The position numbers and the translations under genes were made by a program. Positions 15,902 through 43,649 of a stretch of DNA of 45,026 nucleotides are shown piece after piece; position 1 is the stretch's first letter; each line of letters starts with the position of its first letter. Origin of the DNA: Alphaproteobacteria bacterium (GTDB lineage Bacteria; Pseudomonadota; Alphaproteobacteria; JAAEOK01). Location of the stretch: positions 1 through 45,026 of the forward strand of contig JAAEOK010000093.1 of assembly GCA_024244705.1 (NCBI GenBank), in the 5' to 3' direction. The notes under the pieces were generated by a model. That model had not been told where the DNA came from, did not search any database, and saw only the letters and a list, made by a program, of their open reading frames with translations.

Positions 15902-17572
15902 TTAAGCCGCGACTGGGATTCGACTTTGAACCACCCGAAAGCGGGATGCAACGAAGGCGGCGTCGGTAAGCGCCGCGTTGGCGGCCGGATTGGCGCCGGT
16001 CGCGTGGAAGTCGCTGAAGGCTGAGGATTGATTGACGAATATGTTGCCGATGAGATTGCTCGATAAGGCTACACCCGCCTCCGCCATCGCCTCTTCGGCT
16101 TTTTCGATAACCGCGGCGCGGGTCGAATAGAGCGCCGCCGTAATTGCCCCCATGGAGCGCGTCAGGTCCGATGCGATCGCGATGCTTTGATCCGTATTGT
16201 CGGTCGCGACTATGAACGCGATGGGCCCAAACAGCTCGCGCGAAAATGTGTCCCTTTCATCGCCATCGACCTTGAGCACGAGCGGCGACCGTATCCGCGC
16301 ATCGGGATATTTTGCGTGCGCCAAGGGTGCCGAGTCGCGGACGATTTTGCCGATTTTCCGTGCTTCGTCGATGCGGTCGGCCGTGACCGGATTCTGTATC
16401 GCGCCCAAGACTTCGGCGGCTCGGCCTGGATCTGACAGTAATCCATCGACCGCATTCGAAATTCCCGCTGCCACCTCATCGAACGATTTCGGCCCCTCAT
16501 CGGTTTCTATGCCTTCGCGTGGCACGAATATGTCCTGCGGAGAGGTGCACATTTGACCCGAATAGAGGCTCAGCGAAAACGCCAGATTTCCGCACATGCC
16601 CTTGAAATTGTCGGTTCCGTCGATGACGACGGTGTTCACCCCGGCTTTTTCCGTGAACACGACCGCCTGATGCGCATTCTGTTCCAGCCAGGTTCCGAAC
16701 CCCGTCCCGCCGGTATAATCGATGATCTTGATCTCCCGCCGGAGCGCCCATTGCTTGGTCGATGGCTGCTCGCCGGTATCGCAGGAAAGAGCGACCAAAT
16801 TCGGATCCAAGCCCTGTTCCGAAAGCACGTCGCGGCAGATTTCCGCGGTGATCGCAAGGGGCAGGATGGTTGTCGGGTGCGGCTTGATCAGGACGGCGTT
16901 TCCGGTGGCCAGACTGGCAAAGATGCCCGGGTAGCCATTCCAGGTCGGAAATGTCGAAACGCCGACGGTTAGCGCCACGCCCCGCGGCATGATCCGATAC
17001 GTCTTTTGCAAGCGAATCGGATCGTGCTTGCCTTGCGGCTTTTCCCACCGCGCCGTCTCTGGAATTCCCTTCATCTCCTCGTAGGCATAGGCTATCGCCT
17101 CCAGCCCCCGATCCTGTGCGTGGGGACCGCCGGCCTGAAACGACATGACGAAACCTTGGCCGGTGGTATGCATGATGGCATTGGCAATTTCGAAGCTGCG
17201 CTTGTTGATGCGATCGAGCATCTCCAAACAGATACCAACCCGTGCATCGATGCCCGCCTTCCGCCACGACACCATCGCCGACTGCATCACCGGAAGCAGG
17301 ACATCCGGGTCGCACTGCGGATAGGTAACGCCGAGAGACGGCCCATAGGGAGAGAGCTCGTCGCCGACCCATTCGGCGATGCCCGGCTGGTCGATTTCGA
17401 AACGCCGCCCCAGTCGGGCCTCGAACGCCGCCTCTCCGGCGGCCGCGGCATCCTCGCCATAGACGCGAGGGCTCGGCGATTCCGGGTAGGCCGACCAATA
17501 GTCGCGCGCATGAATCGCCGTGACGGCGGCGTCGAGTGTCTTCTCGTGTTTCAAGAACAGATCGTCAGGCAT
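15902..17572 (-). CDS. paaN: Phenylacetic acid degradation protein PaaN (aldehyde dehydrogenase-like)
   Basis: The 556-residue protein belongs to the aldehyde dehydrogenase superfamily of the PaaN type, which lacks the MaoC-like hydratase domain of PaaZ. Visible features are the cofactor-binding VGVSTFPTWNGYPG region, Glu308 in FTEKAG, the probable catalytic Cys342 in SGQMCTSPQ, and ELFGPIAFIV near 435-445. It is thought to oxidise the ring-opened semialdehyde CoA ester in phenylacetate catabolism. It is transcribed away from the other paa genes but lies only 2.3 kb from them. No separate MaoC hydratase is visible here. Confidence 0.85.
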   Translation of the reverse strand: MPDDLFLKHEKTLDAAVTAIHARDYWSAYPESPSPRVYGEDAAAAGEAAFEARLGRRFEIDQPGIAEWVGDELSPYGPSLGVTYPQCDPDVLLPVMQSAMVSWRKAGIDARVGICLEMLDRINKRSFEIANAIMHTTGQGFVMSFQAGGPHAQDRGLEAIAYAYEEMKGIPETARWEKPQGKHDPIRLQKTYRIMPRGVALTVGVSTFPTWNGYPGIFASLATGNAVLIKPHPTTILPLAITAEICRDVLSEQGLDPNLVALSCDTGEQPSTKQWALRREIKIIDYTGGTGFGTWLEQNAHQAVVFTEKAGVNTVVIDGTDNFKGMCGNLAFSLSLYSGQMCTSPQDIFVPREGIETDEGPKSFDEVAAGISNAVDGLLSDPGRAAEVLGAIQNPVTADRIDEARKIGKIVRDSAPLAHAKYPDARIRSPLVLKVDGDERDTFSRELFGPIAFIVATDNTDQSIAIASDLTRSMGAITAALYSTRAAVIEKAEEAMAEAGVALSSNLIGNIFVNQSSAFSDFHATGANPAANAALTDAAFVASRFRVVQSRIPVAA

Positions 17573-17653: not shown

Positions 17654-18103
17654 CTATAACAGCGTCACCCATTCCTTCGCCCAGTCGAGCGCGTCCTCGT
17701 CGGGCAAGGGTTGCACGCACGCATCGATTTCCAAGCGATCGCCGACGCGGCTGGCGCCAAGCTTCGCGAACAGGGAATCCATGGTCCGGCCGCCTTGGCA
17801 AAATGTGTCGTGATAGGTTTGATCGCCAAGCGCGATGACCCCATAGCGGATATGGCCCAGATCCGGCGCCTGCTTTTCCAGGCTCTCCGCCAGCGGTATG
17901 ATGTTATCCGGCAGCTCGCCGTCGCCGTGGGTCGAGCAACATATCAGGACATACTCGCGGTCGCCAAAGCCCGCATCGGCGCAATCGGCACTATCGAGTA
18001 TCTCAACCGTATGGCCGATCGCGGGCAACTCTTCCTCGAGCAAATCGGCTACCATCTGGCTGTTGCCCGACTCGGTACCGACAATGATCAGGATATCCGC
18101 CAT
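17654..18103 (-). CDS. Flavodoxin / FMN-binding protein, MioC-like
   Basis: This 149-residue single-domain protein has the FMN phosphate loop GTESGNSQ at the N-terminus, the CSTHGDGELPDN loop, and ALGDQTYHDTFCQGG near the isoalloxazine site. It resembles MioC and the FMN domains of sulfite and cytochrome P450 reductases. It is an electron carrier; the partner is not shown by sequence. ATG 18103 puts the first beta strand at the N-terminus; upstream in-frame starts would only add an unstructured leader. It is divergent from the PaaA-like gene, so a link to an oxygenase is possible but unproven. Confidence 0.85.
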   Translation of the reverse strand: MADILIIVGTESGNSQMVADLLEEELPAIGHTVEILDSADCADAGFGDREYVLICCSTHGDGELPDNIIPLAESLEKQAPDLGHIRYGVIALGDQTYHDTFCQGGRTMDSLFAKLGASRVGDRLEIDACVQPLPDEDALDWAKEWVTLL

Positions 18104-18195
18104 GGCGCCCAAAATTTGCATATCTTGCGAGACGCCGAGTCGCCGATTGAGGCCAAATCCGGCACCAGAATTTTTTGATACCAAATTTATCGAAG

Positions 18196-18226
18196 TTTGT
18201 CTATTTTTGTATCTCTTTTAGACGAA
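18196..18226. promoter_or_regulatory. Candidate operator: inverted repeat between flavodoxin and PaaA-like genes
   Basis: In the AT-rich 160-base divergent spacer, TTTGTCTA (18196-18203) is mirrored by TAGACGAA (18219-18226), seven of eight positions, with centres 23 bases apart. This size fits a dimeric repressor such as a TetR/PaaR or GntR regulator. No regulator gene is adjacent, and the assignment rests only on symmetry and position. Confidence 0.3.
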
Positions 18227-18263: not shown

Positions 18264-19040
18264 ATGCACGAGCGCGACGCTGCACTTGTTAAGCGGATTG
18301 CCGACGGCGCGGTAATCGCGGCGCCCGAAGATGTGAGTCCGGGCTACCGGGCCGAGATCATGCGGCTCATGGTCGTATTGGTCGATTCGGAACTCGCCGG
18401 CGCCGCGGGTTTCGCCGAACAAATAAATCACGCGCCAGGGATGAGAGAACGCGTGACGGCGGCCCGGATCGTGGCGGAGAAATTCGCCCATGCGGAGATC
18501 GTTCTGGAATTGCTCCGGCCGTTTGGCGTCAATCCCGAGCTCTACGTCAAATCCCACGCCTGGAACGCCCGCATCAACCGTGCCGTGGACCTTGGTATGC
18601 GCCGGTCGGGCGGCGACAAACGGCTGAACGTCTTTCACTACCCGCTTGAGGGATGGATTGACGCGATTGCCATGAACATGTTGATGGGAAGCGCCAGTTC
18701 CATCCAGTTGGCCGAACTCCTCGATTGCAGCTACAAGCCGTTGGCCGATGCCATGGCCGAGATCGTAGGCCGAGAGGCGGAACATGCGAGTCTGGGCGAG
18801 ATCGGTCTCGTGCAGGCCATCGATCGAGACGCCAACACGACGCCGGCACAGGGTTCGGTCGACTATTGGTATCGGCGCGTGGCGCACACTTTCGGCCGCA
18901 CCGATTCGGACCGCTTCGAGCTCTACCGCGATTTCGGGCTGCGGCGGCATTCCAATTCGGAAATGCTGGACGCGTGGAAAGATGACGTGGCGCCGCGTCT
19001 TGTTAAACTTGGGCTCGAAGTGCCGGCGGCTGTACAATGA
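18264..19040 (+). CDS. PaaA-like ferritin-fold protein (phenylacetic acid catabolic family), altered diiron site
   Basis: The 258-residue protein aligns by eye with PaaA, the oxygenase subunit of phenylacetyl-CoA epoxidase: PEDVSPGYRAEIMRL, NVFHYPLEGWID, SYKPLADAM and a C-terminal NSEMLDAW...LGLEVP block. Glu43 and the second ExxH (Glu171-His174) are retained. The first ExxH reads KFAH (Lys73-His76, with Glu72 shifted by one), and the helix-3 aspartate position is Gly142. PaaA from E. coli is about 50 residues longer. AAGAGG lies upstream of ATG 18264. No paaB, C, D or E is nearby. It may be a structural or regulatory paralogue or have a shifted metal site. The alignment is from memory. Confidence 0.7.
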   Translation: MHERDAALVKRIADGAVIAAPEDVSPGYRAEIMRLMVVLVDSELAGAAGFAEQINHAPGMRERVTAARIVAEKFAHAEIVLELLRPFGVNPELYVKSHAWNARINRAVDLGMRRSGGDKRLNVFHYPLEGWIDAIAMNMLMGSASSIQLAELLDCSYKPLADAMAEIVGREAEHASLGEIGLVQAIDRDANTTPAQGSVDYWYRRVAHTFGRTDSDRFELYRDFGLRRHSNSEMLDAWKDDVAPRLVKLGLEVPAAVQ

Positions 19041-19180: not shown

Positions 19181-19972
19181 ATGAGCTTCAACACCATCGC
19201 CTACGAGACGAACGAAGGGGTCGCGGTCATAACGCTGAACCGGCCGGACAGGCTGAATTCGTTCACCACCGAAATGCACGGAGAATTGAGTGCGGCGTTG
19301 GAAATGGTCGACTCGGATGGTGCCATACGTGCCCTGTTGTTGACCGGCGCGGGTCGGGCATTTTGTGCCGGACAGGACCTCTCCGATCGCGCCGTCGCGC
19401 CGGGTGGCGAGCCGCGCGATCTCGGCGAAACCCTGGACACAATGTACAACCCCTTGATCCGGACGCTCCGCGGTCTCGAGATGCCGGTCGTCGCGGCGGT
19501 CAACGGCGTCGCGGCCGGCGCCGGGGCAAATCTTGCGCTGGCCGCGGATATCGTGCTGGCGGCGAAATCGGCGAATTTCATTCAGGCCTTTTGCAAGATC
19601 GGCTTGGTTCCCGATTCCGGAGGCTCGTATATCCTGCCCCGGCTGGTTGGGCGGGCGCGGGCGATGGGGTTGGCGATGTTGGGGGAAATGCTTTCCGCCG
19701 AGCGGGCCGTGGAAATCGGCCTGATCTGGAAGTGGACGGAAGATCAGGATCTCATGACCGAAGCAATGAGTTTGGCGGTGCATTTGGCTTCGCAGCCAAC
19801 CAAGGGCTTGGCCTTGATCAAGCGCGCCATCAACGCATCTTTCGACAACGACCTGAACACTCAACTCGATCTCGAACGTGACTTTCAACGCATCGCCGGC
19901 CATACCGCCGACTATCAGGAAGGCGTGGCGGCGTTCCTGGAGAAGCGGGCGCCCAACTTCCAGGGCAAATAG
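19181..19972 (+). CDS. paaG: Enoyl-CoA hydratase/isomerase, PaaG-like
   Basis: PaaG isomerises the ring epoxide of phenylacetyl-CoA to the oxepin and also acts in later steps. The 263-residue crotonase-fold protein has the oxyanion-hole strands LLLTGAGRAFCAGQDL and NGVAAGAGANLALAADI, and the active-site region ARAMGLAMLGE. GAGGGA precedes ATG 19181. It starts a tight run with paaH, paaI, a thiolase and paaK, which supports the phenylacetate role over general fatty-acid hydratase. Confidence 0.85.
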   Translation: MSFNTIAYETNEGVAVITLNRPDRLNSFTTEMHGELSAALEMVDSDGAIRALLLTGAGRAFCAGQDLSDRAVAPGGEPRDLGETLDTMYNPLIRTLRGLEMPVVAAVNGVAAGAGANLALAADIVLAAKSANFIQAFCKIGLVPDSGGSYILPRLVGRARAMGLAMLGEMLSAERAVEIGLIWKWTEDQDLMTEAMSLAVHLASQPTKGLALIKRAINASFDNDLNTQLDLERDFQRIAGHTADYQEGVAAFLEKRAPNFQGK

Positions 19973-21513
19973 TGGGCGGTCTCCCCAAACAGACGTCGGT
20001 CGCCGTTATCGGTGCAGGCACGATGGGCAGTGGCATCGCCCAGGTCGCCGCGACGGCGGGACACAAGGTCTGCCTATATGACGCCGTTCCAGGCGCGGCA
20101 CAGAAGGGCAAGGAGGGAATTGCCCGGTCCCTCAATCGACTGGTCGAAAAGGGACGAATCGACGAACAAACCAGTGCCGTCATGCTGGCGCGAATCAGCG
20201 CGGTCGAGGACCTGGCGTCGTGCCGATCGAGTTCTTTGATCATCGAAGCGATCGTTGAGGATTTGGCCGCCAAGCGCGACTTGTTCGGCCAGATCGAGGG
20301 GCTTTGCGCGGATGATGCCATCCTGGCCACCAACACCTCTTCGTTGTCGATTACCGCCATCGGCGCCGACCTGCACCGTCCGCATCGCTTGGTCGGCATG
20401 CACTTTTTCAATCCTGCGCCGGTGATGGCGCTGGTCGAGATCGTAAGCGGGCTAGCGACGGGACGGGACATTGCCGATACGGCGTACGCAACGGCCGAGG
20501 ATTGGGCAAAGATTCCGGTCCACGCGAAATCGACGCCCGGATTCATCGTCAATCGCGTCGCGCGGCCGTTCTATGCCGAAGGACTGCGCGTCTATGCCGA
20601 AGGCGGCACCGATCCGGCGACCATAGATTCGGTCATGCGCGGCTCCGGAGGATTTCGCATGGGACCGTTCGAACTCATGGATCTCATCGGCAATGACATC
20701 AACGCGGCGGTCACTCGATCGGTGTGGCAGGCCTTTCATTGCGACCCTCGTTACACGCCTTCCCTGGCCCAGGAGGAGCTCGTTGCCGCAGGGCGGTACG
20801 GGCGCAAATCCGGTGCCGGCTGGCATGCCTACGGCGCCGATGCGCCGGCCCCCAGCGCTGTCACCGCGGCGCCGGCGCCGGCGCCAAATCAAGTCCTTGT
20901 CGAAGGTCATCTGGGACCCGCGGAATCACTGGTGACGGAACTCGAGAGGGCGGGAATCCCTCATGCCCGAACCGACAGCAACGAAGTCGATTCGGCCGGC
21001 GCACTCGTCCTCGACGACACCGTACTGAGATTGACCGACGGCAGGCCGGCGACGGAGCTCGCGGCGGAATTGGATGAGGGCCATAAATTGGTCCTCTTCG
21101 ATTTGGCATTCGACTATGCGCGCGCCGATCGCATCGCGGTGGCGGCCGCGGACCAAACCGATCCCGGCGCCGTCGCGGCGGCGGCCGGTCTATTCCAGGC
21201 ACTGGACAAGGACGTATCGGTGATCGACGATATTCCGGGCATGATCGTTGCGCGCACCGTCGCGATGCTGGCCAACGAGGCAGCGGAAGCGGCCTACCAG
21301 GGTGTCGCCAACCCCGCGGCCATAGACTTGGCGATGGTGAAGGGGCTCAACTACCCGCGCGGGCCGCTCGATTGGGCCGACCGCGTCGGCATCGAATGGA
21401 TATGCGGGCTTTTATCGAACCTTGCCACGGTTTATGGCGAAGATCGTTACAGGGTATCGCCGATGATTCGGCGTAAGACCTGGTCTAGGAAGGGATTTCA
21501 TGACGACGGCTGA
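19972..21513 (+). CDS. paaH: 3-hydroxyacyl-CoA dehydrogenase, PaaH-like
   Basis: The 513-residue enzyme has an NAD-binding domain with VAVIGAGTMGSGIAQ (GxGxxG at 14-19). The first 3HCDH C-terminal domain contains FNPAPVMALVEIV and KSTPGFIVNRVARPF, and a second partial C-terminal domain ends with GLNYPRGPLDWADRVG. This two-C-domain length is typical of PaaH/PaaC. It would oxidise 3-hydroxyadipyl-CoA to 3-oxoadipyl-CoA. It starts with GTG at 19972, sharing one base with the paaG stop, and overlaps paaI by 14 bases. A low-complexity Ala/Pro linker (about residues 290-305) separates the halves. Confidence 0.9.
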   Translation: MGGLPKQTSVAVIGAGTMGSGIAQVAATAGHKVCLYDAVPGAAQKGKEGIARSLNRLVEKGRIDEQTSAVMLARISAVEDLASCRSSSLIIEAIVEDLAAKRDLFGQIEGLCADDAILATNTSSLSITAIGADLHRPHRLVGMHFFNPAPVMALVEIVSGLATGRDIADTAYATAEDWAKIPVHAKSTPGFIVNRVARPFYAEGLRVYAEGGTDPATIDSVMRGSGGFRMGPFELMDLIGNDINAAVTRSVWQAFHCDPRYTPSLAQEELVAAGRYGRKSGAGWHAYGADAPAPSAVTAAPAPAPNQVLVEGHLGPAESLVTELERAGIPHARTDSNEVDSAGALVLDDTVLRLTDGRPATELAAELDEGHKLVLFDLAFDYARADRIAVAAADQTDPGAVAAAAGLFQALDKDVSVIDDIPGMIVARTVAMLANEAAEAAYQGVANPAAIDLAMVKGLNYPRGPLDWADRVGIEWICGLLSNLATVYGEDRYRVSPMIRRKTWSRKGFHDDG

Positions 21514-21952
21514 CGTGGAACACGAGGTGGCGCAGACGGTCGGCGCCGCGATGATGGTGGGCGACAAGGCGGCCGCGATGCTCGGCATAGCGCTCGAAGA
21601 GGTTGCATCGGGTTACGCGCGCTTTCGCATGACGGTTCGTCCTGATATGGTCAATTCGCACGACATCTGCCATGGCCGGCTCATATTTACGTTGGCCGAT
21701 ACGGCGTTTGCCGTCGCCTGCAACAGTTCGAATCATGTCGCCGTCGCGCAGCATTGTTCGATAACATTCCTGACACCGGCCAAGACCGGAGATATCCTGG
21801 TTGCGATTGCACAGCAACATAACCGGCGCGGCCGCACGGGGGTCACCGACACCACCGTTGCGCGCGAGGACGGGGAAAATATTGCGGTGTTTCGCGGCAA
21901 CTCGGTGGCGTTGAAGGGAGAGGTCGTTCCAGACCTGACGGTGAAAACATGA
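21500..21952 (+). CDS. paaI: PaaI-family hydroxyphenylacetyl-CoA thioesterase
   Basis: This 150-residue hotdog-fold thioesterase carries the PaaI signature around SHDICHGRLIFTLADTAFAVACNS, including the catalytic acidic residue in LAD. PaaI hydrolyses dead-end ring-hydroxylated phenylacetyl-CoA esters and protects the CoA pool. It overlaps paaH by 14 bases and the thiolase by 4 bases (ATGA), so the genes are translationally coupled. Gly-Gly after CHG in relatives is Arg-Leu here, a minor change. Confidence 0.9.
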   Translation: MTTADVEHEVAQTVGAAMMVGDKAAAMLGIALEEVASGYARFRMTVRPDMVNSHDICHGRLIFTLADTAFAVACNSSNHVAVAQHCSITFLTPAKTGDILVAIAQQHNRRGRTGVTDTTVAREDGENIAVFRGNSVALKGEVVPDLTVKT

Positions 21953-23154
21953 ATGAAGCCTTCGTCTGCGACGCTGTCCGTACCCCCATCGGGCGTTATG
22001 CCGGCGATTTGTCATCGCTGCGTCCCGATGACCTGTTGGCGGTCGCTATCAAGGCACTGATGCGAGACCGCGGCGACCTCGACTGGTCGTGCCTCGACGA
22101 CGCCGTCATGGGTTGCGCCAACCAGGCCGGCGAGGACAATCGGAATGTCGCGCGCATGGCCCTGCTCCTGGCGGGCTTGCCGGAAGTGGTCCCCGGCGCG
22201 ACGGTCAATCGTCTCTGCGGTTCGGGCATGGATGCCTGCGGAATTGCCGCCCGCGCTATCAAATCCGGTGAGGCCGACCTGATCCTTGCCGGCGGCGTCG
22301 AAAGCATGTCGCGCGCGCCATTCGTAATGGGCAAAGCCGAAAACGCGTTTTCTCGCTCCGCTGAGATCTACGACACGACAATCGGATGGCGGTTCGTCAA
22401 CGAATTGATGAAGAAGGAGTTCGGCGTCGATTCGATGCCCGAGACCGCCGAGAACGTCGCCGAGGAGTTCCAAGTCAGCCGAGAAGATCAGGACGCTTTC
22501 GCCCTGCGCAGCCAGCAACGCGCTGGGGTGGCCCAATCGAGCGGCCGTCTTGCCAAAGAAATCGAGCCGGTGACGATCCCTCAACGGAAGGGCGATCCGA
22601 AGATTGTGGCGGCGGACGAGCATCCGCGACCCCAGACGACGCTCGAAGACCTCGCCCGATTGCCGACACCGTTTCGCGACGGTGGCTCGGTGACCGCCGG
22701 CAACGCGTCGGGAATCAATGACGGCGCCTGCGCGGTCCTTATCGCGTCGGAAGAAGCGGTCGCGGCGCACGGCCTGACCCCTCGCGCCCGCATTGCCGGC
22801 ATGGCCACGGCCGGTGTGGCGCCTCGCATCATGGGTATCGGGCCCGCCCCGGCGTCGGCGAAGTTGCTCGACCGCCTCGGCCTGAAGATCGCCGATATCG
22901 ATGTCATCGAATTGAACGAGGCCTTCGCATCGCAGGCCCTCGCCGTCTTGCGGCAGCTGGGAGTTCCGGACGACGCCGATCACGTCAACCCAAACGGCGG
23001 CGCGATCGCCCTCGGCCATCCGCTCGGTATGAGCGGCGCGCGCCTGGTGACGACGGCGGCGCAGGAACTACAGGAAACCGGCGGCAAATATGCGCTCGCC
23101 ACAATGTGCATCGGCGTCGGCCAGGGAATCGCCATGATACTAGAGCGGGTATGA
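21949..23154 (+). CDS. paaJ: 3-oxoadipyl-CoA thiolase (PaaJ/PcaF-like)
   Basis: The 401-residue thiolase has all catalytic residues: the nucleophile Cys90 in RLCGSGMDACG, His357 in LGHPLGMSGARL, and Cys387 in CIGVGQG. GGVESMSRAPFVMGKAE and the ELNEAFASQALAVL segment are typical of the PaaJ/PcaF group. It would cleave 3-oxoadipyl-CoA (and the 5,6-dehydro form) to acetyl-CoA and succinyl-CoA or the dehydro product. The same enzyme can serve the beta-ketoadipate pathway, so the symbol rests on the operon context. Confidence 0.88.
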   Translation: MNEAFVCDAVRTPIGRYAGDLSSLRPDDLLAVAIKALMRDRGDLDWSCLDDAVMGCANQAGEDNRNVARMALLLAGLPEVVPGATVNRLCGSGMDACGIAARAIKSGEADLILAGGVESMSRAPFVMGKAENAFSRSAEIYDTTIGWRFVNELMKKEFGVDSMPETAENVAEEFQVSREDQDAFALRSQQRAGVAQSSGRLAKEIEPVTIPQRKGDPKIVAADEHPRPQTTLEDLARLPTPFRDGGSVTAGNASGINDGACAVLIASEEAVAAHGLTPRARIAGMATAGVAPRIMGIGPAPASAKLLDRLGLKIADIDVIELNEAFASQALAVLRQLGVPDDADHVNPNGGAIALGHPLGMSGARLVTTAAQELQETGGKYALATMCIGVGQGIAMILERV

Positions 23155-23176: not shown

Positions 23177-24484
23177 ATGCGAAATACGCCCCCGAGCAAG
23201 AACGATCTGGACCCGATAGAAATCGCCAGCCGCGACGAGATCGGTGCGCTGCAACTCAAACGCCTGAAGTGGACGTTGGGCCATGCCTATCGCAATGTCC
23301 CCCACTACAAGAAGGCGTTCGACGATGCCGGAATAGGTCCGAACGACCTCAAGGATCTATCCGATCTGGCGCGGTTTCCATTCACCACCAAGGAGGCGCT
23401 CCGCGAGGCCTATCCGTTTGGTATGTTCGCCGTCCCACGCGAACAGGTCGCGCGGATTCACGCGTCGAGCGGAACAACCGGCAAGCCGACGGTCGTCGGT
23501 TACACGGCCAAGGATATCAGCACCTGGGCCGACCTGATTGCCCGCTCCATGCGGGCATGTGGCACTCGGCCGGGGGATATCGTCCATGTCGCCTACGGCT
23601 ATGGCCTGTTCACCGGCGGTCTCGGCGCGCATTACGGGGCCGAGCGGCTCGGCTGTACCGTTATTCCGGTCTCGGGCGGCATGACGGAGCGGCAAGTGCA
23701 GTTGATCGAGGACTTCAAACCAACCACGATCATGGTAACGCCATCCTATGCTCTGGCACTAGCAGACGAGTTCGACCGCCAGGGCCTCGACGCGCGGAAC
23801 TCGTCCCTTCGCATCGGCATACACGGCGCCGAGCCGTGGACTAATTCGATGCGCCAGGAAATCGAAACGCGCTTCGATATGGACGCACTCGATGTTTACG
23901 GTCTTTCGGAAATATTGGGTCCCGGTGTGGCGTGTGAGTGCCTCGAGACGAAAGACGGCCCGACAATCTGGGAGGACCACTTCTATCCGGAGATCGTCGA
24001 CCCGAGCACCGGCGAACCGGTGCCGGACGGCGAAATCGGTGAATTGGTATTCACGACCTTGACCAAAGAAGCTCTACCGATGATCCGGTATCGGACGCGC
24101 GACCTCACCCGACTGCTCCCGGGCACGGCCCGGTCGATGCGCCGATTCGAGAAAGTGACCGGGCGATCGGATGACATGCTGATCATACGCGGCGTCAATC
24201 TGTTCCCAACACAGATCGAAGAACTGATCCTCCAGGATGAGCGCTTGTCGCCGCACTATGTATTGGAAGTGCGCCGCGATGGTCCGTTGGACAGCTTGAA
24301 GATTATCGTCGAGGGACGTGCGAACGCCTCCGAATCGGCGGTCGCTGAGGCGAGCGAAAACCTCCGTCACCTGGTGAAGAATCGCATCGGTGTCAGCGCC
24401 GAAGTCAAGATGCTGCCCGAAGGCGGTGTCGAGCGCTCCGTGGGCAAGGCCAAGCGGATTATCGACCTGCGCCCGAAGACCTAG
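23177..24484 (+). CDS. paaK: Phenylacetate-CoA ligase
   Basis: PaaK activates phenylacetate to phenylacetyl-CoA using ATP. The 435-residue ANL-superfamily protein has the P-loop-like ASSGTTGKPT (96-105), the adenine-binding region DVYGLSEILGPG, the hinge region RTRDL, and the C-terminal GRSDDMLIIRGVNLFPTQIEE block. It follows the thiolase by 22 bases and precedes a flavin hydroxylase by 12 bases. The family also includes ligases for other aryl acids such as hydroxylated benzoates, so the acid is inferred from the neighbours. Confidence 0.9.
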   Translation: MRNTPPSKNDLDPIEIASRDEIGALQLKRLKWTLGHAYRNVPHYKKAFDDAGIGPNDLKDLSDLARFPFTTKEALREAYPFGMFAVPREQVARIHASSGTTGKPTVVGYTAKDISTWADLIARSMRACGTRPGDIVHVAYGYGLFTGGLGAHYGAERLGCTVIPVSGGMTERQVQLIEDFKPTTIMVTPSYALALADEFDRQGLDARNSSLRIGIHGAEPWTNSMRQEIETRFDMDALDVYGLSEILGPGVACECLETKDGPTIWEDHFYPEIVDPSTGEPVPDGEIGELVFTTLTKEALPMIRYRTRDLTRLLPGTARSMRRFEKVTGRSDDMLIIRGVNLFPTQIEELILQDERLSPHYVLEVRRDGPLDSLKIIVEGRANASESAVAEASENLRHLVKNRIGVSAEVKMLPEGGVERSVGKAKRIIDLRPKT

Positions 24485-31197: not shown

Positions 31198-32115
31198 CTA
31201 TCGCCTTGCCGGATGATGTTTTATCCAATGGCGTGCGATATCCGCCCGCCGACAGATCCAGACCTTGTCATGGTCCTGCACGTAGTCGAGAAATCGAGCC
31301 AATGATGCGGCGCGACCGGGTCTGCCGACGAGGCGGCAATGCAGCCCCACCGACATCATCTTCGGCGTCGCCTCGCCCTCCGCGTACAGGACGTCGAACG
31401 AATCCTTGAGATAGGAGAAGAACTGGTCGCCGGCATTGAATCCCTGCGCGGTCGCGAATCGCATGTCATTGGCGTCCAACGTATACGGAACGATGAGGTG
31501 GTCCCTGCCGGACACCGAGACCCAATACGGCAGGTCATCGTTGTAGGCGTCGGCATCGTATAGGAATCCGCCCTCCTCGACGACGAGACGGCGCGTATTG
31601 GGACTCATGCGACCGGTGTACCAGCCCACGGGGCGCTTGCCTGAAAGGTCACGAATGGTCTTTACCGCCAGCTTCAGATGGTCGCGTTCCGTTTCCTCGT
31701 CGACATACTGATAGTCGATCCAGCGCCAGCCATGGCTGGCGATTTCGTGACGCCCCTCGACCATCGCGGCGGCGGCATCGGGATTACGGGCCAAGGCCAT
31801 GGCGACGGCGAACACGGTGACGCGAATTCCGCGGTCTTCGAACAGGCGCATCAGGCGCCAGAACCCGGCGCGCGAGCCGTATTCATAGATCGATTCCATG
31901 TTCATGTTGCGCGCGCCATACAGCGGCTCCGCACCGACGATCTCGGACAGAAAAGCTTCCGATGCGGGATCGCCATGAAGGATATTGTTCTCGCCGCCCT
32001 CCTCGTAGTTCAGCACGATCTGAACTGCGACGCGCGCACCCTTGGGCCAGTTCGCATGGGGCGGACGTGGGCCGTAGCCCACCATGTCGCGCGGGTAGCG
32101 TTGCCTCTTCTGCAT
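31198..32115 (-). CDS. puuE: Allantoinase PuuE (polysaccharide-deacetylase-fold)
   Basis: PuuE opens the allantoin ring to allantoate and is unrelated to the amidohydrolase-type allantoinases. The 305-residue protein matches Pseudomonas PuuE closely: YPRDMVGYG near the start, LNYEEGGENNILHGD, MNMESIYEYGSRAG, HGWRWIDYQYVDEETERDH, GWYTGRMSPNTRRL and a C-terminal DIARHWI. It lies between puuD (6 bases) and the M20 gene (4 bases). In some genomes this gene is linked or fused to an OHCU decarboxylase; here it stands without one. Confidence 0.93.
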   Translation of the reverse strand: MQKRQRYPRDMVGYGPRPPHANWPKGARVAVQIVLNYEEGGENNILHGDPASEAFLSEIVGAEPLYGARNMNMESIYEYGSRAGFWRLMRLFEDRGIRVTVFAVAMALARNPDAAAAMVEGRHEIASHGWRWIDYQYVDEETERDHLKLAVKTIRDLSGKRPVGWYTGRMSPNTRRLVVEEGGFLYDADAYNDDLPYWVSVSGRDHLIVPYTLDANDMRFATAQGFNAGDQFFSYLKDSFDVLYAEGEATPKMMSVGLHCRLVGRPGRAASLARFLDYVQDHDKVWICRRADIARHWIKHHPARR

Positions 32116-32121
32116 GGTCAG

Positions 32122-33321
32122 CTAATCGATTTCGGCGCCCTGCGCGATCCATCGGCGCAGGATTTCGCGTTCGGCGTCGGTCATTTCGGTAAGATTGCCC
32201 GGCGGCATGACGTCCGATTGCAGAGACTGGGCATCGATTTCAGCGGCGCGCGCCTGGATTTGTTCCGGCGTGTCGTACATCACGCCTTTTGGCGCCACGT
32301 CGACATATTCGCCGCTCGGCTCCGCGGAATGGCAGATACCGCAACGCACGTCGATGATCGTGCGAACGTCGACGAACGCCACCTTATCGCCCCCCGCGTC
32401 CGAACGGATGGCCGCCTGGCCAAGCCATATTCCGAGCAGCAACAACATACCCGCGGCACCGGCGGCCACGAACAAGAGACCCTGCTTCTCCTTGCCCTTG
32501 TTGCGCAGATTGAAAAAGTGCCGGATCGACGCGCCAACCAAAACCAAAAGCCCGAGGATGAGCCAATTGAGGTCGTTCCCGTAGGTCCCCGCATAGTGGC
32601 CGCTGATCATGAGGAACAGCACCGGCAGCGTCATGTAATTGTTGTGGACGGATCGGTTCTTGGCCCGCTCGGCGGCGGCTTTATCGGGCTGGCGCCCGGC
32701 CTTGGTCGCGTCGACCAATTCGCGCTGCGATGGAATGATGCGCATCCATACGTTGGCCGCCATCAGCGTGCCCATCATCGCGCCGACATGGAGATAGGCC
32801 GCGCGGTCGCTCATGAAATGGGTTAGCCCCCAGGCGATCAACAACATCAGCAAAAACGAAATGAGCGCGGCGACCTTCGGTGAATTCATGGCGAAGCCGG
32901 AATTCCACAGCGTGTCGTAGACGAACCAGGCAACGATCAGCGTGGCCAGACCGAGCACGATCGTGCCGCCGACACCGAGGCCGGAGGGCTCCGACGGCAT
33001 CGTATAGACGCTGGCACCGACATAGTAGATCAGAACCAGCAAGAAGAATCCGGTGATCCAGGTAAACCCGGCTTCCCACTTGACCCAGTGCAGTGTCTTG
33101 GGAATGTCGGCCGGCGCCAACTGGATTTTGATCATGTTGTAAAAGCCGCCGCTATGGACCATCCACAGGTTGCCCTCGATCTTATCGTCACCATCCTTGG
33201 GCGGCTCGATATGGCTGTCGAGCCAATTGAAAAAGAACGACGATCCAATCCACGCGATTCCGGTGACGATATGCGCCCAGCGCAGAATCAGATTGAGCCA
33301 ATCGCTGAATATGGCTTCCAC
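32122..33321 (-). CDS. puuD: Urate hydroxylase PuuD (membrane cytochrome c-type)
   Basis: PuuD oxidises urate to 5-hydroxyisourate and passes electrons to the respiratory chain rather than to oxygen. The N-terminal two-thirds has about eight TM helices starting WLNLILRWAHIVTGIAWIG. A C-terminal cytochrome c domain has the heme motif CGICH (Cys327, Cys330, His331). GTG 33321 is chosen because AAGGAG lies 7 bases upstream and the product begins MEAIFSDW as in relatives; the longer ORF reads back into the regulator gene. It is 17 bases after the GntR gene, so regulator and pathway are probably co-transcribed. Confidence 0.92.
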   Translation of the reverse strand: MEAIFSDWLNLILRWAHIVTGIAWIGSSFFFNWLDSHIEPPKDGDDKIEGNLWMVHSGGFYNMIKIQLAPADIPKTLHWVKWEAGFTWITGFFLLVLIYYVGASVYTMPSEPSGLGVGGTIVLGLATLIVAWFVYDTLWNSGFAMNSPKVAALISFLLMLLIAWGLTHFMSDRAAYLHVGAMMGTLMAANVWMRIIPSQRELVDATKAGRQPDKAAAERAKNRSVHNNYMTLPVLFLMISGHYAGTYGNDLNWLILGLLVLVGASIRHFFNLRNKGKEKQGLLFVAAGAAGMLLLLGIWLGQAAIRSDAGGDKVAFVDVRTIIDVRCGICHSAEPSGEYVDVAPKGVMYDTPEQIQARAAEIDAQSLQSDVMPPGNLTEMTDAEREILRRWIAQGAEID

Positions 33322-33338
33322 GTCCCTGCTCCTTGTCC

Positions 33339-34064
33339 TTAATTGTTGGCGGCTTCGGCAAATATTTCGTTCAGATTGAGCGAGCCGCCGCCCGCCTCGA
33401 GTTTCAATTTCTGTTCGCACACCTGAAGATGGCGGTTCATGAGATCGATCGCCTGTCCACTATCGCCGCTGGCGATGGCGCCGATGATCGCCCGATGCTC
33501 GTCAAACGAGCACGCTGAGTTCCCAGGCGTCTCATAAATCGCGATAACCAGCGAAGTCCGCGACACCAATTCCCGCAAGAAGTCGACGATGACGCCGTTT
33601 CCCGCATGCTCCGCAAGTCGAATATGAAAGTCGCCGGAAAGACGAATCCAGTGGCCGCGATCGCCGTCCGAGAACGCGGCCTCCTCCTCATCGACAAGAT
33701 TCCGAAGCGCGTCGATCTGCTCGCTGGATATCCTTCCCAATAGATTCTCGATCACCGCTTTCTCCAATATGCGGCGGGTCTGGAAGACCTCTCGGGCCTG
33801 TTCCACCGACGGGCTCGCCACGACGGCGCCACGATTGGGTCGTATCTCCACGATATTGTCGCGACTGAGCCGGAAAAGTGCCTTGCGAATTACCGTTCGG
33901 CTGACGCCAAAGACTTCGCCCAAGGAATCTTCGGCGAGTTTTGTTCCCGGCGGAAGCTTGTGTGCCAGAATGGCATCATAGACCGCTCGGTAGACCGCTT
34001 CATCGCCCGTAACCGAACGCGGATCAGTGTTTTGCTTGCGAATCGCGGCAATCTCAGAAGCCAT
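33339..34064 (-). CDS. GntR/FadR-family (FCD domain) transcriptional regulator
   Basis: The 241-residue protein has an N-terminal winged helix-turn-helix (about 22-85, with VFGVSRTVIRKALFRL). An all-helical FCD ligand-binding domain (about 90-215) follows, with putative metal or ligand histidines His147, His190 and His212. AAAGGAG lies 6 bases before ATG 34064. It is first in the puuD-puuE-M20 transcript and divergent from uraH-xdh, so it probably controls both arms, with a purine or ureide effector. Repression or activation cannot be told from sequence. Confidence 0.9.
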   Translation of the reverse strand: MASEIAAIRKQNTDPRSVTGDEAVYRAVYDAILAHKLPPGTKLAEDSLGEVFGVSRTVIRKALFRLSRDNIVEIRPNRGAVVASPSVEQAREVFQTRRILEKAVIENLLGRISSEQIDALRNLVDEEEAAFSDGDRGHWIRLSGDFHIRLAEHAGNGVIVDFLRELVSRTSLVIAIYETPGNSACSFDEHRAIIGAIASGDSGQAIDLMNRHLQVCEQKLKLEAGGGSLNLNEIFAEAANN

Positions 34065-34252
34065 TTTGTCTCCTTTTTCCATTCCAGACCCTTGCCCCCA
34101 TGATTATTGAATACACTTCTTTTATAAAAATGGATACAATTTAATGGACAACGATGCTAAATTGCTTTTTGTTAACATTTGGCAGCAGCCAGCAAGAACA
34201 TAAGCTGGGCGGCACCGATCCGCTCGGATAGAACAGGCAGGAGGAGACGAAT
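34065..34252. promoter_or_regulatory. Divergent control region of the purine island
   Basis: This 188-base spacer separates the leftward regulator/puuD operon from the rightward uraH/xdh operon. Its centre is AT-rich with TATAAA at 34123-34128. GAATACA (34109-34115) and GGATACA (34132-34138) form a direct repeat 23 bases apart. TGGATACA and TGGACAAC (34131-34152) form a second, shorter pair. These are candidate GntR/FCD sites. GGAGGAG lies just before the uraH start. No individual -35/-10 pair is convincing. Confidence 0.4.
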
Positions 34253-34606
34253 ATGGGCCGTCTGACGACGCACGTGCTGGATGCGGCCCGCGGCGTACCC
34301 GGCGCCGGGATCGCAATCGATCTCTATAGAATGGAGGACGGCGAGCGCGTCCACATAGCCGCGACCGAGACCAATGGCGATGGACGGTGCAACGGGCCGC
34401 TTCTTGAAGGCGAAGGGTTCGCCGCCGGCGTCTACGAACTGGTCTTCCAGACAGCCGCCTATTTTCGAAATTCCGACATCGAGCTGCCCGATCCGCCATT
34501 CCTCGACGCCGTGGTCGTGAGATTTGGCGTGTCGGATACCGAATCGCACTATCATGTGCCGATACTCGTTTCGCCGTGGAGCTACACGACCTATCGCGGG
34601 AGCTGA
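34253..34606 (+). CDS. uraH: 5-hydroxyisourate hydrolase (transthyretin-like)
   Basis: UraH hydrolyses the PuuD product to OHCU. The 117-residue protein has the family hallmarks LTTHVLD with His7, Arg45 in NGDGRCN, HYHVP (His99 and His101) and the C-terminal tetrapeptide YRGS. AGGAGGAG precedes ATG 34253. It is first in the rightward operon, 6 bases before xdhA. It has no signal peptide, so it should be cytoplasmic. Confidence 0.96.
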   Translation: MGRLTTHVLDAARGVPGAGIAIDLYRMEDGERVHIAATETNGDGRCNGPLLEGEGFAAGVYELVFQTAAYFRNSDIELPDPPFLDAVVVRFGVSDTESHYHVPILVSPWSYTTYRGS

Positions 34607-34612
34607 TCGCAA

Positions 34613-36097
34613 ATGCCCCCTAAGACAAAACCGCATGCAGAAGACCACGCCACCATTCGATTCATGCTGAACGATGAACTGCGCGAGGTCGACGACATCG
34701 ATCCGAATACGACGGTGCTCAATTATCTAAGGTTGCAAGAACAAGAAACCGGCACCAAGGAAGGCTGCGCCGAAGGCGATTGCGGCGCATGCTCCGTCGT
34801 GCTCGGCGAGGTCGATAACGGACGCATTCGTTATCGGACGGTCAACGCTTGCATCCTCTTTCTACCGGTGGTCGATGGCAAGCAACTTATTACAGTCGAA
34901 GGGTTGCGACAGACGGATGGAAGCCTTCACCCGGTACAGCAGGCCCTGGTCGACTTGCACGGTTCGCAATGCGGCTTCTGCACCCCGGGCTTCGTCATGT
35001 CGATGTTTGCCCTCTACAAGCACAATCCGTCGCCGACGCGTCAGCAGATCAATGATTGCCTCGCCGGAAATCTCTGCCGATGCACGGGATACCGGCCGAT
35101 CGTCGAGGCCGCCGCGAACATGCATGGCTATGGCAAGAAGGATCATTTCTCGGCGGCGGAAAAGCGGACCGTAAAGCTGCTCAAATCCTTGCAGCGGTCC
35201 GATACGCTATTGCTAAAATCCGGTAATCGCCGATACTTCGCGCCGATTTCCTCTGACGGCGTGGCCGAAATATTCGCCCGAAATCCCGATGCTTGCCTGC
35301 TCGCCGGCGGTACCGACGTCGGGCTGATCGCGACCAAGGATCATAAGGATCTCGATACATTGATTTACACCGGCGGTGCCCGCGATCTGGCCTCGGTGGA
35401 GGTTGGCGGCGATTCGATCGAAATCGGGGCCGCCGCGACCTATAGCGACGCCCTCGACGCCATCAGTCGCGAGTACGATGACTTCGGCGAAGTCCTGCGC
35501 CGCCTTGGCTCGGTACAGGTTCGGAACGCAGGAACCATGGTCGGCAATATCGGCAATGCCTCTCCGATCGGCGATTCTAGCCCGTTGCTGATCGCCCTCG
35601 ACGCCAAGGTCATTCTCCGCAAGGGCGCCAAGCGACGCACGCTGGATCTCGGGGCGTTTTTCGTCGGCTACCGAAAGACCCAATTGCGGCGCGGCGAATT
35701 CATCGAGAAGATCGTGTTGCCGCGGTCGCGGCCGGACACCGTGTTTCGCGCCTACAAGATCTCGAAGCGTTTCGACCAGGACATTTCCGCTGCCTGCGGC
35801 GCGTTTGCCGTCCGTCTCGAGGGCGGCCGGGTGCGGGACATCCGCATTTGTTTCGGCGGCATGGCGGCGACCCCGAAACGAGCAACGGCGGCCGAAGCGG
35901 CAATAAAGGGCCGCGTCTGGTCGCTGTCGACGGTCTCTGGCGGGATGGCCGCCATGGAATCGGATTATGAGCCCTTGACCGACATGCGCGCTTCCCGCGA
36001 TTACCGCCTCACGGTCGCGAAGAACCTGCTCTACAAATTCTATCTCGAGACCACGGACGGTGCCGCCGAGACCCGCGTCGTGGCATATGGGACATAG
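34613..36097 (+). CDS. xdhA: Xanthine dehydrogenase small subunit (2Fe-2S and FAD)
   Basis: The electron-transfer subunit (494 residues) carries a plant-type 2Fe-2S cluster (Cys52, Cys57, Cys60, Cys80) and a second 2Fe-2S cluster (Cys120, Cys123, Cys155, Cys157). An FAD domain with LLAGGTDVGLI and TMVGNIGNASPIGD follows, then a CO-dehydrogenase-flavoprotein C-terminal domain. It passes electrons from the Mo site of XdhB to NAD+. Order and spacing (4 bases to xdhB) are those of the Rhodobacter-type two-subunit enzyme. Confidence 0.95.
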   Translation: MPPKTKPHAEDHATIRFMLNDELREVDDIDPNTTVLNYLRLQEQETGTKEGCAEGDCGACSVVLGEVDNGRIRYRTVNACILFLPVVDGKQLITVEGLRQTDGSLHPVQQALVDLHGSQCGFCTPGFVMSMFALYKHNPSPTRQQINDCLAGNLCRCTGYRPIVEAAANMHGYGKKDHFSAAEKRTVKLLKSLQRSDTLLLKSGNRRYFAPISSDGVAEIFARNPDACLLAGGTDVGLIATKDHKDLDTLIYTGGARDLASVEVGGDSIEIGAAATYSDALDAISREYDDFGEVLRRLGSVQVRNAGTMVGNIGNASPIGDSSPLLIALDAKVILRKGAKRRTLDLGAFFVGYRKTQLRRGEFIEKIVLPRSRPDTVFRAYKISKRFDQDISAACGAFAVRLEGGRVRDIRICFGGMAATPKRATAAEAAIKGRVWSLSTVSGGMAAMESDYEPLTDMRASRDYRLTVAKNLLYKFYLETTDGAAETRVVAYGT

Positions 36098-36100
36098 ACC

Positions 36101-38449
36101 ATGGCAAAAAAATCGAAAAAGACGCGCCTGCTCACCAGAGTTCATCAATCGGTGGCTCATGACAGCGCCCACAAACATGTGAGCGGCGAGGCGATTTATA
36201 TCGATGATATCCCCGAGCCGCCGCTCATGTTGAACGTCGCCATCGGTATGAGCGACCACCCCCACGCCAAAATCCGCGCGATCGATCTCGGCCGCGTCAG
36301 AAAAGCGCCCGGCGTCGTCGCCGTGCTGACCGCCGCCGATATTCCCGGCAAAAACGACGTCGGCCCAGTCTTCGACGGCGATCCGGTCCTGGTGAACGAG
36401 CTTGTCGAGTTCAAAGGCCAGGCGATATTCGCGGTGGCCGCGGAAACCATGGAGCAGGCGCGCCGCGCCGCGCGCTTGGGCAAGATCGACTACGAAGTCC
36501 TGGACCCGATCCTGACTGTCGAAGAGGCCCTGGCCGCCGACTTCTACGTTCTGCCGCCGCACGTCATGCGGCGGGGAAATTCGCGCAAAGCGCTCGACAA
36601 GGCGCGCCACAAGATCGACGGCCGCTTCAAGATGGGCGGGCAGGATCACTTCTACCTCGAGGGACAGATCAGCCTGGCGGTGCCGGGCGAGGACGGCGAC
36701 CTCGTCATATATTGCTCGACGCAGCATCCCTCCGAGATCCAGCAAGGCGTTTCACACGTCCTCGGCTGCGACAGCAATGCGATCACCGTCGAGGTCCGCC
36801 GCATGGGCGGCGGGTTCGGCGGCAAGGAAACGCAAGGCGCCCAATTCGCCGCGCTCGCCGCCTTGTTCGCACGAAAGACCGGCCGGCCGGCGAAGGTCCG
36901 CCTCGACCGCGACGACGACATGATCATCACCGGAAAGCGCCATGACTTCATCGTCGATTTTGAGGTTGGCTTCGACGATGTCGGCGCGATCAATGGCATC
37001 GAGATCGAACTCGCCTCGCGCTGCGGCATGTCGGCGGAGTTGTCGGGCGCGATCAATGACCGAGCCATGTTCCACTGCGCCAATGCGTACTACCTGCCGA
37101 ATATCACGGTCACATCGCATCGCTGCAAGACCCACACCGTATCGAATACGGCATTTCGAGGATTCGGCGGTGCCCAGGGCATGCTGGCGATGGAGCACAT
37201 CATCGACGAAGTGGCACGGCACCTCGGCAAGGACCCCTTGAAGGTCCGCAAGCACAATTTCTATGGCGAATCGGAACGTAACGTCACCCACTATCACATG
37301 ACGGTCGAGGACTTCGTCCTCCACAAGCTGGTTCCGGACCTCGAAAAATCTTCCGACTATTTCAATCGACGCCAGGAGGTCGCGGCGTTCAATGCGACCA
37401 GCGCCGTGTTGAAGAAGGGCATCGCCCTCACGCCGATCAAGTTCGGCATATCCTTCACCACGACATTCCTCAACCAAGCCGGCGCGTTGATCCACGTCTA
37501 CACGGACGGCAGTGTCCACCTCAACCACGGTGGAACCGAGATGGGACAGGGTCTTTTCGTCAAGGTCGCCCAGGTCGTCGCCGAGGAATTCCAAATTGAT
37601 CTGGACCGGATCAAGATCACCGCCACCAACACAAGCAAGGTGCCGAATACCTCGGCCACCGCGGCATCCTCCGGCACCGACATGAATGGGGCCGCCGCCT
37701 TTGTCGCGGCCAACAAGATCAAGCGCCGGCTAATCGCCTTTGCCGCCGAACACTTCAAGGTCGACCGCAGCAAGATTCGGTTTCACGACAATCACGTCGA
37801 GATCGGCCGTCGGCGGATCCCCTTCAACGAGCTTATTCAACTGGCTTACCTGGGCCGGGTGTCGCTCTCCGCGACCGGGTTCTACACCACACCCAAAATC
37901 CACTACGACCGGGAAAAGGCGCGCGGCAGGCCGTTTTACTATTTCGCCTATGGCGCGGCCGTTTCCGAGGTTTTGATCGACACGCTGACCGGTGAGTACA
38001 AACTCCTGCGCGCAGATATCTTGCACGACTGCGGACGATCCTTGAACCCGGCGATCGATATCGGGCAGGTCGAAGGCGCGTTCGTGCAGGGCATGGGATG
38101 GCTCACCATGGAAGAACTTCATTGGAATCCAGACGGCGGATTGGCGACGCACGCACCGTCGACCTATAAGATTCCCGTGGCCAGCGACATCCCCGCCGAG
38201 TTTCATGTGCGCCTTCTCGAAAGCGGACGAAACAAGGAAAAGGTCATCCACTGGTCCAAGGCCGTCGGCGAACCGCCGTTCATGCTCGGGATATCGGTGT
38301 TCCATGCGATCAAGGATGCGGTCTCCGCGGTCGGCGAGCACCAATTGAGCCCGGCCCTCAACGCCCCGGCAACACCGGAAGAGGTCCTTCGATCTGTCGA
38401 CGAATTGCGCCATCGCTTGTCCCGCCCTGCCGCGGAGGCCGCGGAATGA
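36101..38449 (+). CDS. xdhB: Xanthine dehydrogenase molybdenum-binding large subunit
   Basis: This 782-residue subunit holds the molybdopterin cofactor and oxidises hypoxanthine and xanthine to urate. The purine-binding Glu243 (GGKETQ), Arg353 (AFRGFGG) and the catalytic base Glu724 (VGEPPF) are all present. This argues for xanthine dehydrogenase over aldehyde or CO dehydrogenase relatives. Residue roles are assigned by comparison with the Rhodobacter capsulatus enzyme. Its stop overlaps xdhC by 4 bases. Confidence 0.95.
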   Translation: MAKKSKKTRLLTRVHQSVAHDSAHKHVSGEAIYIDDIPEPPLMLNVAIGMSDHPHAKIRAIDLGRVRKAPGVVAVLTAADIPGKNDVGPVFDGDPVLVNELVEFKGQAIFAVAAETMEQARRAARLGKIDYEVLDPILTVEEALAADFYVLPPHVMRRGNSRKALDKARHKIDGRFKMGGQDHFYLEGQISLAVPGEDGDLVIYCSTQHPSEIQQGVSHVLGCDSNAITVEVRRMGGGFGGKETQGAQFAALAALFARKTGRPAKVRLDRDDDMIITGKRHDFIVDFEVGFDDVGAINGIEIELASRCGMSAELSGAINDRAMFHCANAYYLPNITVTSHRCKTHTVSNTAFRGFGGAQGMLAMEHIIDEVARHLGKDPLKVRKHNFYGESERNVTHYHMTVEDFVLHKLVPDLEKSSDYFNRRQEVAAFNATSAVLKKGIALTPIKFGISFTTTFLNQAGALIHVYTDGSVHLNHGGTEMGQGLFVKVAQVVAEEFQIDLDRIKITATNTSKVPNTSATAASSGTDMNGAAAFVAANKIKRRLIAFAAEHFKVDRSKIRFHDNHVEIGRRRIPFNELIQLAYLGRVSLSATGFYTTPKIHYDREKARGRPFYYFAYGAAVSEVLIDTLTGEYKLLRADILHDCGRSLNPAIDIGQVEGAFVQGMGWLTMEELHWNPDGGLATHAPSTYKIPVASDIPAEFHVRLLESGRNKEKVIHWSKAVGEPPFMLGISVFHAIKDAVSAVGEHQLSPALNAPATPEEVLRSVDELRHRLSRPAAEAAE

Positions 38450-39519: not shown

Positions 39520-39986
39520 GCCATCATGATTTCATGCGCGAGGCGATTGCGCTGTCGCACCGGATGATGGAGGAAAACAAGGGCGGCCCATTTGGCGCCG
39601 TCATCGTCCGCGACGGCGAGATCATCGCTTACGGATGGAACAAGGTCACATCGGAGAACGATCCGACGGCGCATGCGGAGGTCTCGGCCATCCGGGAGGC
39701 TTGCAGCAAGCTTGGCACATTCGCGCTGACCGATTGCGATATCTACACCAGCTGCGAGCCCTGCCCGATGTGCCTGAGCGCGATTTATTGGGCGCGTCTG
39801 CGCAGCATGTATTACGGCAACGCACGCCAGGACGCGGCCCGGATCGGATTCGACGACGAGTTTCTCTACACGGAGGTCGCGTTGGCGATCGACGACCGCA
39901 GCCTGCCGACCGTGCGCTTGCTCGAGGAAGAGGCCATCGTCGCCTTCGATGTGTGGGAGAAGAAACCCGACAAGGTCCAGTATTGA
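39516..39986 (+). CDS. guaD: Guanine deaminase (cytidine-deaminase fold)
   Basis: GuaD converts guanine to xanthine, feeding XdhAB. The 156-residue protein has the zinc site HAE (His53, Glu55) and PCPMC (Cys83, Cys86) of the CDA superfamily, and resembles Bacillus GuaD, including the domain-swapped C-terminal segment ending in KKPDKVQY. ATG 39516 overlaps the xdhC stop. A tRNA adenosine deaminase is an alternative for this fold, but the neighbours favour guanine. Confidence 0.85.
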   Translation: MSHHDFMREAIALSHRMMEENKGGPFGAVIVRDGEIIAYGWNKVTSENDPTAHAEVSAIREACSKLGTFALTDCDIYTSCEPCPMCLSAIYWARLRSMYYGNARQDAARIGFDDEFLYTEVALAIDDRSLPTVRLLEEEAIVAFDVWEKKPDKVQY

Positions 39987-40017
39987 TGCGGACTCGGACC
40001 GGGAAGAAAGGCTGGAC

Positions 40018-42646: not shown

Positions 42647-42649
42647 GTC

Positions 42650-43579: not shown

Positions 43580-43649
43580 CCGAGATCAACGCAAACGGAC
43601 TTACAATGGAAACGAACAAGACAACGACAGTAACAGGGAAGGACCGAAT

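Follow-up and report, generated by a model that had tools for sequence, protein, structure and literature searches.

A PaaA-like protein with lysine at a metal-ligand position, conserved beside phenylacetate degradation genes with and without paaABCDE

The window (the whole stretch of DNA analyzed, 45,026 nucleotides of an alphaproteobacterial contig) carries genes for phenylacetate degradation headed by a gene for a PaaA-like protein, and the question raised by the locus is what such a protein does where no paaB, paaC, paaD or paaE lies in the window. The PaaA-like gene, a single uninterrupted ORF, follows paaN and a divergent flavodoxin gene, and leads paaG-paaH-paaI-paaJ-paaK (Table 1). The first-pass annotation had placed the gene at the head of this run, had linked it to the pathway and had noted the absence of paaB-E nearby; all three points are borne out. 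Directly past paaK resides an FAD-dependent, aromatic-hydroxylase-like monooxygenase (NF006002; 24497-26182), kept at the same place in a second, distant genome (L075 16802-18493; 62% identity). Farther on, within 31198-44738, genes resembling those of purine catabolism were noted by eye, among them a xanthine-dehydrogenase-like (34613-38449) and a polysaccharide-deacetylase/allantoinase-like ORF (31198-32115), along with a nucleoside-type ABC transporter and a BMP-like protein (39949-44738).

Table 1. Coordinates of the features discussed (window positions, unless a locus is named).
Feature	Position	Strand	Evidence
PaaN, ring-cleavage-step aldehyde dehydrogenase (TIGR02288)	15902..17572	-	profile match; synteny
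Short MioC/YqcA-like flavodoxin, head-to-head with the K-type gene	17654..18103	-	profile; conserved synteny
Candidate operator GATACCAAA...TGTCTATTTT in the flavodoxin/K-type intergenic region	18177..18208	.	comparison of six loci
K-type PaaA-like protein, 258 aa, with E43, E72-K73, H76, G142, E171, H174	18264..19040	+	ORF, Pfam, alignment
Codon 73 (AAA, Lys) at the PaaA ligand Glu72 position	18480..18482	+	sequence, alignment
Codon 142 (GGA, Gly) at the PaaA ligand Asp126 position	18687..18689	+	sequence, alignment
PaaG, 1,2-epoxyphenylacetyl-CoA isomerase (TIGR02280)	19181..19972	+	profile match
PaaH-like 3-hydroxyacyl-CoA dehydrogenase	19972..21513	+	TIGR02279 635 bits, cut-off 669; NF006124 over cut-off
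PaaI thioesterase (TIGR02286)	21500..21952	+	profile match
PaaJ/PcaF 3-oxoadipyl-CoA thiolase (TIGR02430)	21949..23154	+	profile match
PaaK phenylacetate-CoA ligase (TIGR02155)	23177..24484	+	profile match
X-type PaaA-like genes	L003 1468-2304; L074 13922-14812; L034 10096-10914; L076 929-1750; L105 7868-8698		

The protein is a member of the PaaA_PaaC superfamily (PF05138; E=5.6e-24, 85.2 bits vs. a cut-off of 28.5, profile positions 5-227 of 263), but stays far below the equivalog cut-offs of PaaA (TIGR02156, 65.3 vs. 280 bits), PaaC (TIGR02158, 23.8 vs. 133 bits) and BoxB (TIGR03225, 21 vs. 499 bits). The metal ligands of Escherichia coli PaaA are Glu42, Glu72, His75, Asp126, Glu155 and His158, and a 'lysine bridge' is formed there by Lys68, Glu49, Glu72 and Asp126 (PMC4498308). 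Aligned with these ligands are, in order, E43, K73, H76, G142, E171 and H174 of the window protein. The first-pass annotation had correctly read lysine for the glutamate of the first ExxH motif, glycine for the aspartate of helix 3, and Glu43 and the second ExxH (171-174) as kept. The bridge is gone, Lys68 and Glu49 being replaced by I69 and F50. The offset to PaaA is constant, +1 across Y28...G88 and +16 across W131...H174, so that no gap between conserved anchors can hide a displaced ligand, and misalignment is ruled out: two of the six PaaA ligands are missing.

Full-length relatives, ~34-67% identical to the window protein (mostly 44-67%), were collected from genome and plasmid searches, and 24 proteins of this kind (K-type) were compared with 69 other family members. 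Lysine occupies the Glu72 position in all K-types and in none of the others; glycine the Asp126 position in 22 of the 24 (S and E in the remaining two), and in one of the 69. Glu72 (window numbering), Glu171 and His174 are invariant among K-types. E43 and H76 are kept in 21 members each, replaced by A, A, Q and by N, N, S, respectively, in the others. Lysine 73 is thus better conserved than two of the remaining ligand positions, and, since E43 and H76 are each lost in three K-types, a diiron site is not a requirement of the clade. The substitutions are not a strain-specific mutation, nor the mark of a pseudogene, being conserved in 24 members. A further trait is shared with PaaA, where the aryl-CoA loop reads SSIFNYP and Phe108 orients the ring (PMC4498308): the loop is LNVFHYP in the window protein, and the pattern V-F/L-x-Y-P is found in all K-types, with Phe in 21 of 24.

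The 24 K-types form one clade (SH-aLRT 98-100) placed outside PaaA, PaaC and a gentisate-linked PaaA-like type, in a tree built by a quick method with long branches flagged, which gave no K-type root from which to order the two operon contexts described below. The window protein falls in this clade and carries its invariant E72-K73, E171 and H174; PaaC makes a separate clade (SH-aLRT 100), with which it does not group. The AlphaFold2 model of the K-type (pLDDT 83.7) has E43, K73/H76, G142 and E171/H174 on four successive long helices. By Foldseek the model matches PaaA chains with a TM of 0.79-0.82 vs. 0.64-0.69 for PaaC, and its VIA Z scores are ~26 vs. 22 in the same comparison; among solved structures, PaaA chains and Sulfolobus SSO1313 match best, with PaaC and BoxB behind them. 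In both fold and tree the K-type is nearer PaaA than PaaC. That it is a PaaC orthologue is ruled out by its place in the tree, by its HMM score and by operons which hold both proteins.

K-type genes reside in two main settings. In the first, represented by six loci (the window, G086, G369, G183, G121 and L041, the latter a 6.9-kb contig which stops inside paaH), paaABCDE are missing from the cluster, and the layout is flavodoxin <-> K-type-(paaF)-paaG-(paaH)-paaI-(paaJ)-paaK. In the second, the layout is paaX-paaJ-paaABCDE-K-type-(paaZ), as in Paracoccus denitrificans PD1222, Phyllobacterium zundukense, Ruegeria sp. THAF33 and Sinorhizobium chiapasense; in each of the 16 paaABCDE loci examined the K-type gene lies directly 3' of paaE, paaZ frequently coming next, and it is mostly annotated in public records just as 'Phenylacetic acid catabolic protein'. 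The description of the protein as solitary in the first-pass annotation holds for the window only: elsewhere the gene usually follows paaE directly, and the widespread family, its usual place as a sixth gene and two more PaaA-like proteins of the same genome had been overlooked. K-types were not seen on Sinorhizobium meliloti plasmids, where only PaaA was found. In a sample of 385 alphaproteobacterial genomes, 44 of the 47 bearing PaaB have no K-type, which is dispensable for ordinary PaaABCDE.

Could the K-type be a functionless paralogue in decay? The ligand losses and the lack of the gene in most paa genomes would fit. Yet ORFs are intact across Rhizobiales- and Rhodobacterales-type loci, share dozens of invariant residues, and keep their synteny in two different operon types, and such decay is regarded as highly improbable. 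A sensor or regulator, binding phenylacetyl-CoA or its epoxide and modulating expression or flux from outside the oxygenase, would be in line with the dispensability of the K-type in most PaaABCDE genomes, and with plasmids of Bartonella from bats, in which two K-type genes come after paaX and the stretch shown has no further paa gene. The place directly after paaE suggests instead a role at the enzyme level, and the Pfam search detected no DNA-binding domain in the window protein; a regulatory function is rated improbable. In the plasmid of Bartonella sp. HY038, from a bat, the two K-types past paaX are diverged, and are followed by several small unannotated proteins (L138 7611-10989).

The window genome is 96.7% complete. 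Genome-wide searches detected neither PaaB nor a full-strength PaaA or PaaC, its three PF05138 members scoring 80-88 bits each, whereas genuine PaaA and PaaC exceed 300 bits. The search of the genome for a complete paaABCDE, proposed in the first-pass annotation, was thus negative by PF05138 and PaaB, and a PaaABCDE set encoded elsewhere in it is rejected. The set is missing genome-wide in four more genomes; the chance that all five lack PaaB through incompleteness alone is ~8e-7.

The second PF05138 member of the window genome belongs to another group of PaaA-like proteins (X-type), which likewise form a clade of their own (SH-aLRT 98-100), apart from PaaA, PaaC and the gentisate-linked proteins. 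X-types keep E, E, H, E, H of the ligand set and Lys68, the sole ligand loss being Asp126 to Thr; the IFNYP loop of PaaA is absent. Among the 385 genomes, K-types were found in 8 and X-types in 5, and the latter are exactly the five K-type genomes devoid of PaaB; the other three carry paaABCDE and no X-type. The naive P for finding X-types only inside K-type genomes is 8e-10, relatedness being ignored, though the five genomes span four families. In four of the five genomes one contig carries both the K-type and the X-type gene, 5-17 kb apart; in the window genome they lie on different contigs, and the X-type gene (contig C36) is divergent from that of a PaaX regulator, as in 3 of the 5 genomes overall. 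A conserved small protein of ~140 aa (~137 aa in the window genome) matching no Pfam family is encoded after the X-type. In the window genome the PaaX/X-type pair is adjoined by an ORF which by eye looks like a cytochrome P450 (L036 5678-6934).

The third member (contig C110; L035 8909-12673) keeps all six ligands; its neighbours are a PaaE-like reductase and an SDR, along with a gentisate-dioxygenase-like double cupin. This gentisate-linked, six-ligand type is present in many Alphaproteobacteria (see also L037 7334-8986, beside an SDR and the double cupin), and is a candidate hydroxylase of aryl-CoA thioesters feeding gentisate-type cleavage.

The distribution of X-types bears on two further explanations. 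K-type and X-type might be the non-catalytic and the catalytic half, respectively, of a heterodimer resembling PaaA/PaaC which works without PaaB, PaaD and PaaE. The co-occurrence in the same PaaB-free genomes, in four of them on one contig, and the ligand set of the X-type speak in favour, and PaaC is likewise a partner of PaaA fold with a structural role (PMC4498308). However, the K-type is closer to PaaA than to PaaC, and it shares operons with PaaC elsewhere, so it does not as a rule stand in for PaaC; the substitution of PaaC is held to be distinctly unlikely. Doubtful to the same degree is that the K-type is a remodelled oxygenase, in which E43, E72, H76, E171 and H174 would hold one or two metals, be reduced by the flavodoxin, and epoxidise phenylacetyl-CoA without PaaABCDE. 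All five residues are present in each of the six K-types from paaABCDE-free loci, E72 and H76 are spaced i/i+4 on one helix, the flavodoxin gene is head-to-head with the K-type gene in all six, and paaK and paaG imply that some epoxidase must exist. Yet the same Lys and Gly are found in K-types residing beside a complete PaaABCDE, some of which have lost E43 and H76, and the X-type, with a fuller ligand set, co-occurs in all five genomes searched. Nor is Glu72 a gain: the position before ExxH is acidic in 68 of the 69 other family members (41 D, 27 E, 1 Q), hence Glu72 was not newly recruited for metal. A remodelled site using Glu72, as the first-pass annotation suggested, is thus a minor possibility, given that no K-type lacks this residue and that all five residues are in place in the six paaABCDE-free members. 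Some metal binding in these six is possible, judging from the residues kept.

The close form of the flavodoxin (>290 bits) was found, in a sample of 289 genomes, only in the four first-setting genomes which this sample includes. More distant relatives adjoin paaG-paaG or paaF-H-J with no K-type, which weakens the notion of an obligate partner of the K-type. Those loci, where the flavodoxin gene is head-to-head with paaG-like pairs or paaF-H-J (L145 8222-10348, L146 6287-8472, L148 8026-10142, L147 8298-12540), point to an unexplained tie of the flavodoxin to the oxepin/beta-oxidation step. The intergenic element GATACCAAA...TGTCTATTTT is exact in four of the six flavodoxin/K-type regions and near-exact in a fifth, and [T/C]GATAC occurs in all six. 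TGATAC is also found in 3 of the 5 regions upstream of X-type genes, those with a divergent paaX (6 of 2000 shuffles reach as many), and TGATTC recurs in the paa intergenic regions of E. coli. These shared motifs suggest that a single PaaX-like regulator may act on both K-type and X-type genes.

The reading we prefer, with moderate confidence, is that the K-type is a pseudo-oxygenase, metal-free or nearly so, which keeps the aryl-CoA loop and plays an accessory part in epoxidation. This goes beyond what was observed, namely residues, clade, gene order, co-occurrence and the lack of PaaB, in supposing a loss of metal, ligand binding, a partner, an electron route and a function. Lys73 would probably fill the cavity left by the metal, paired with Glu171 and neighbouring carboxylates, and the kept loop makes it probable that the protein can bind phenylacetyl-CoA or the ring epoxide derived from it. 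It would assist a catalytic subunit of PaaA type, within PaaABCE in most species; in the paaABCDE-free lineage the X-type is, from its five ligands and its link to PaaX, the most likely catalyst, despite the loss of the IFNYP loop, and the flavodoxin may supply electrons. Of the three options of the first-pass annotation, a structural or regulatory paralogue is the best fit, relatives of the protein having dropped Glu43 and/or His76 and most coexisting with a complete PaaABCDE. A bolder scheme, tentative and on the unlikely side, is a two-protein oxygenase of PaaABCDE-free Alphaproteobacteria, in which the five-ligand X-type and a K-type holding the aryl-CoA, with a dedicated flavodoxin, would epoxidise phenylacetyl-CoA. 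In its extreme form the K-type would carry a metal-free, flavodoxin-generated oxidant, by analogy with the class Ie ribonucleotide reductases considered below.

The K-type is a variant within a known superfamily, for which no published description was found in the openly accessible literature, subscription journals being mostly outside the scope of the search. As a sixth gene of a textbook aromatic-degradation operon it is conserved, yet has no name and has apparently escaped study, and it survives where the operon's own oxygenase is gone. As ligase, isomerase and lower pathway are present there with no known epoxidase, these genomes would harbour either a novel phenylacetyl-CoA oxygenase or a novel route. 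In a 2026 survey PaaA and PaaC, which have one Pfam architecture, served as pathway markers, and were found in all 825 ligase-encoding proteomes (PMC13186573); both the K-type and the X-type fall in that Pfam family, and by architecture alone they would presumably count as PaaA or PaaC.

Among known systems, PaaA (TIGR02156; 3PVR, 4IIT) resembles the K-type in full-length fold (TM ~0.8), in the E42, H75, E155 and H158 positions, in the aryl-CoA loop and in residing in the paa operon; the K-type differs in Glu72 to Lys, Asp126 to Gly and the loss of the K68/E49 bridge, has ~16 extra residues before the loop and no C-terminal extension, and is 21-25% identical. PaaC (TIGR02158; 1OTK) has a PaaA-like fold, a broken metal site and a place in the same operon, but makes a separate clade, coexists with the K-type, and mostly features L/Q where the K-type has K/H. 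SSO1313 of Sulfolobus solfataricus (4MUD), a short PaaA-like protein, is the top VIA match (Z 26), yet is 21% identical and has an ordinary ExxH (DELNH) opposite EKFAH of the K-type. BoxB, a benzoyl-CoA epoxidase (3PER, 3PM5), is a diiron enzyme of the same superfamily, but is twice as long, matches weakly in sequence, and has an intact diiron centre. The R2 protein of class Ie ribonucleotide reductases is metal-free, with lysine replacing a metal-ligand glutamate at a site served by a flavodoxin-like protein (PMC11846895). R2 (VPK/QSK) with NrdI thus offers a works-like precedent, an analogy and not evidence, for a lysine-filled, flavodoxin-served site in a diiron-carboxylate fold; its function is another, three ligands are replaced, DOPA is needed, and homology to the K-type does not extend beyond the fold.
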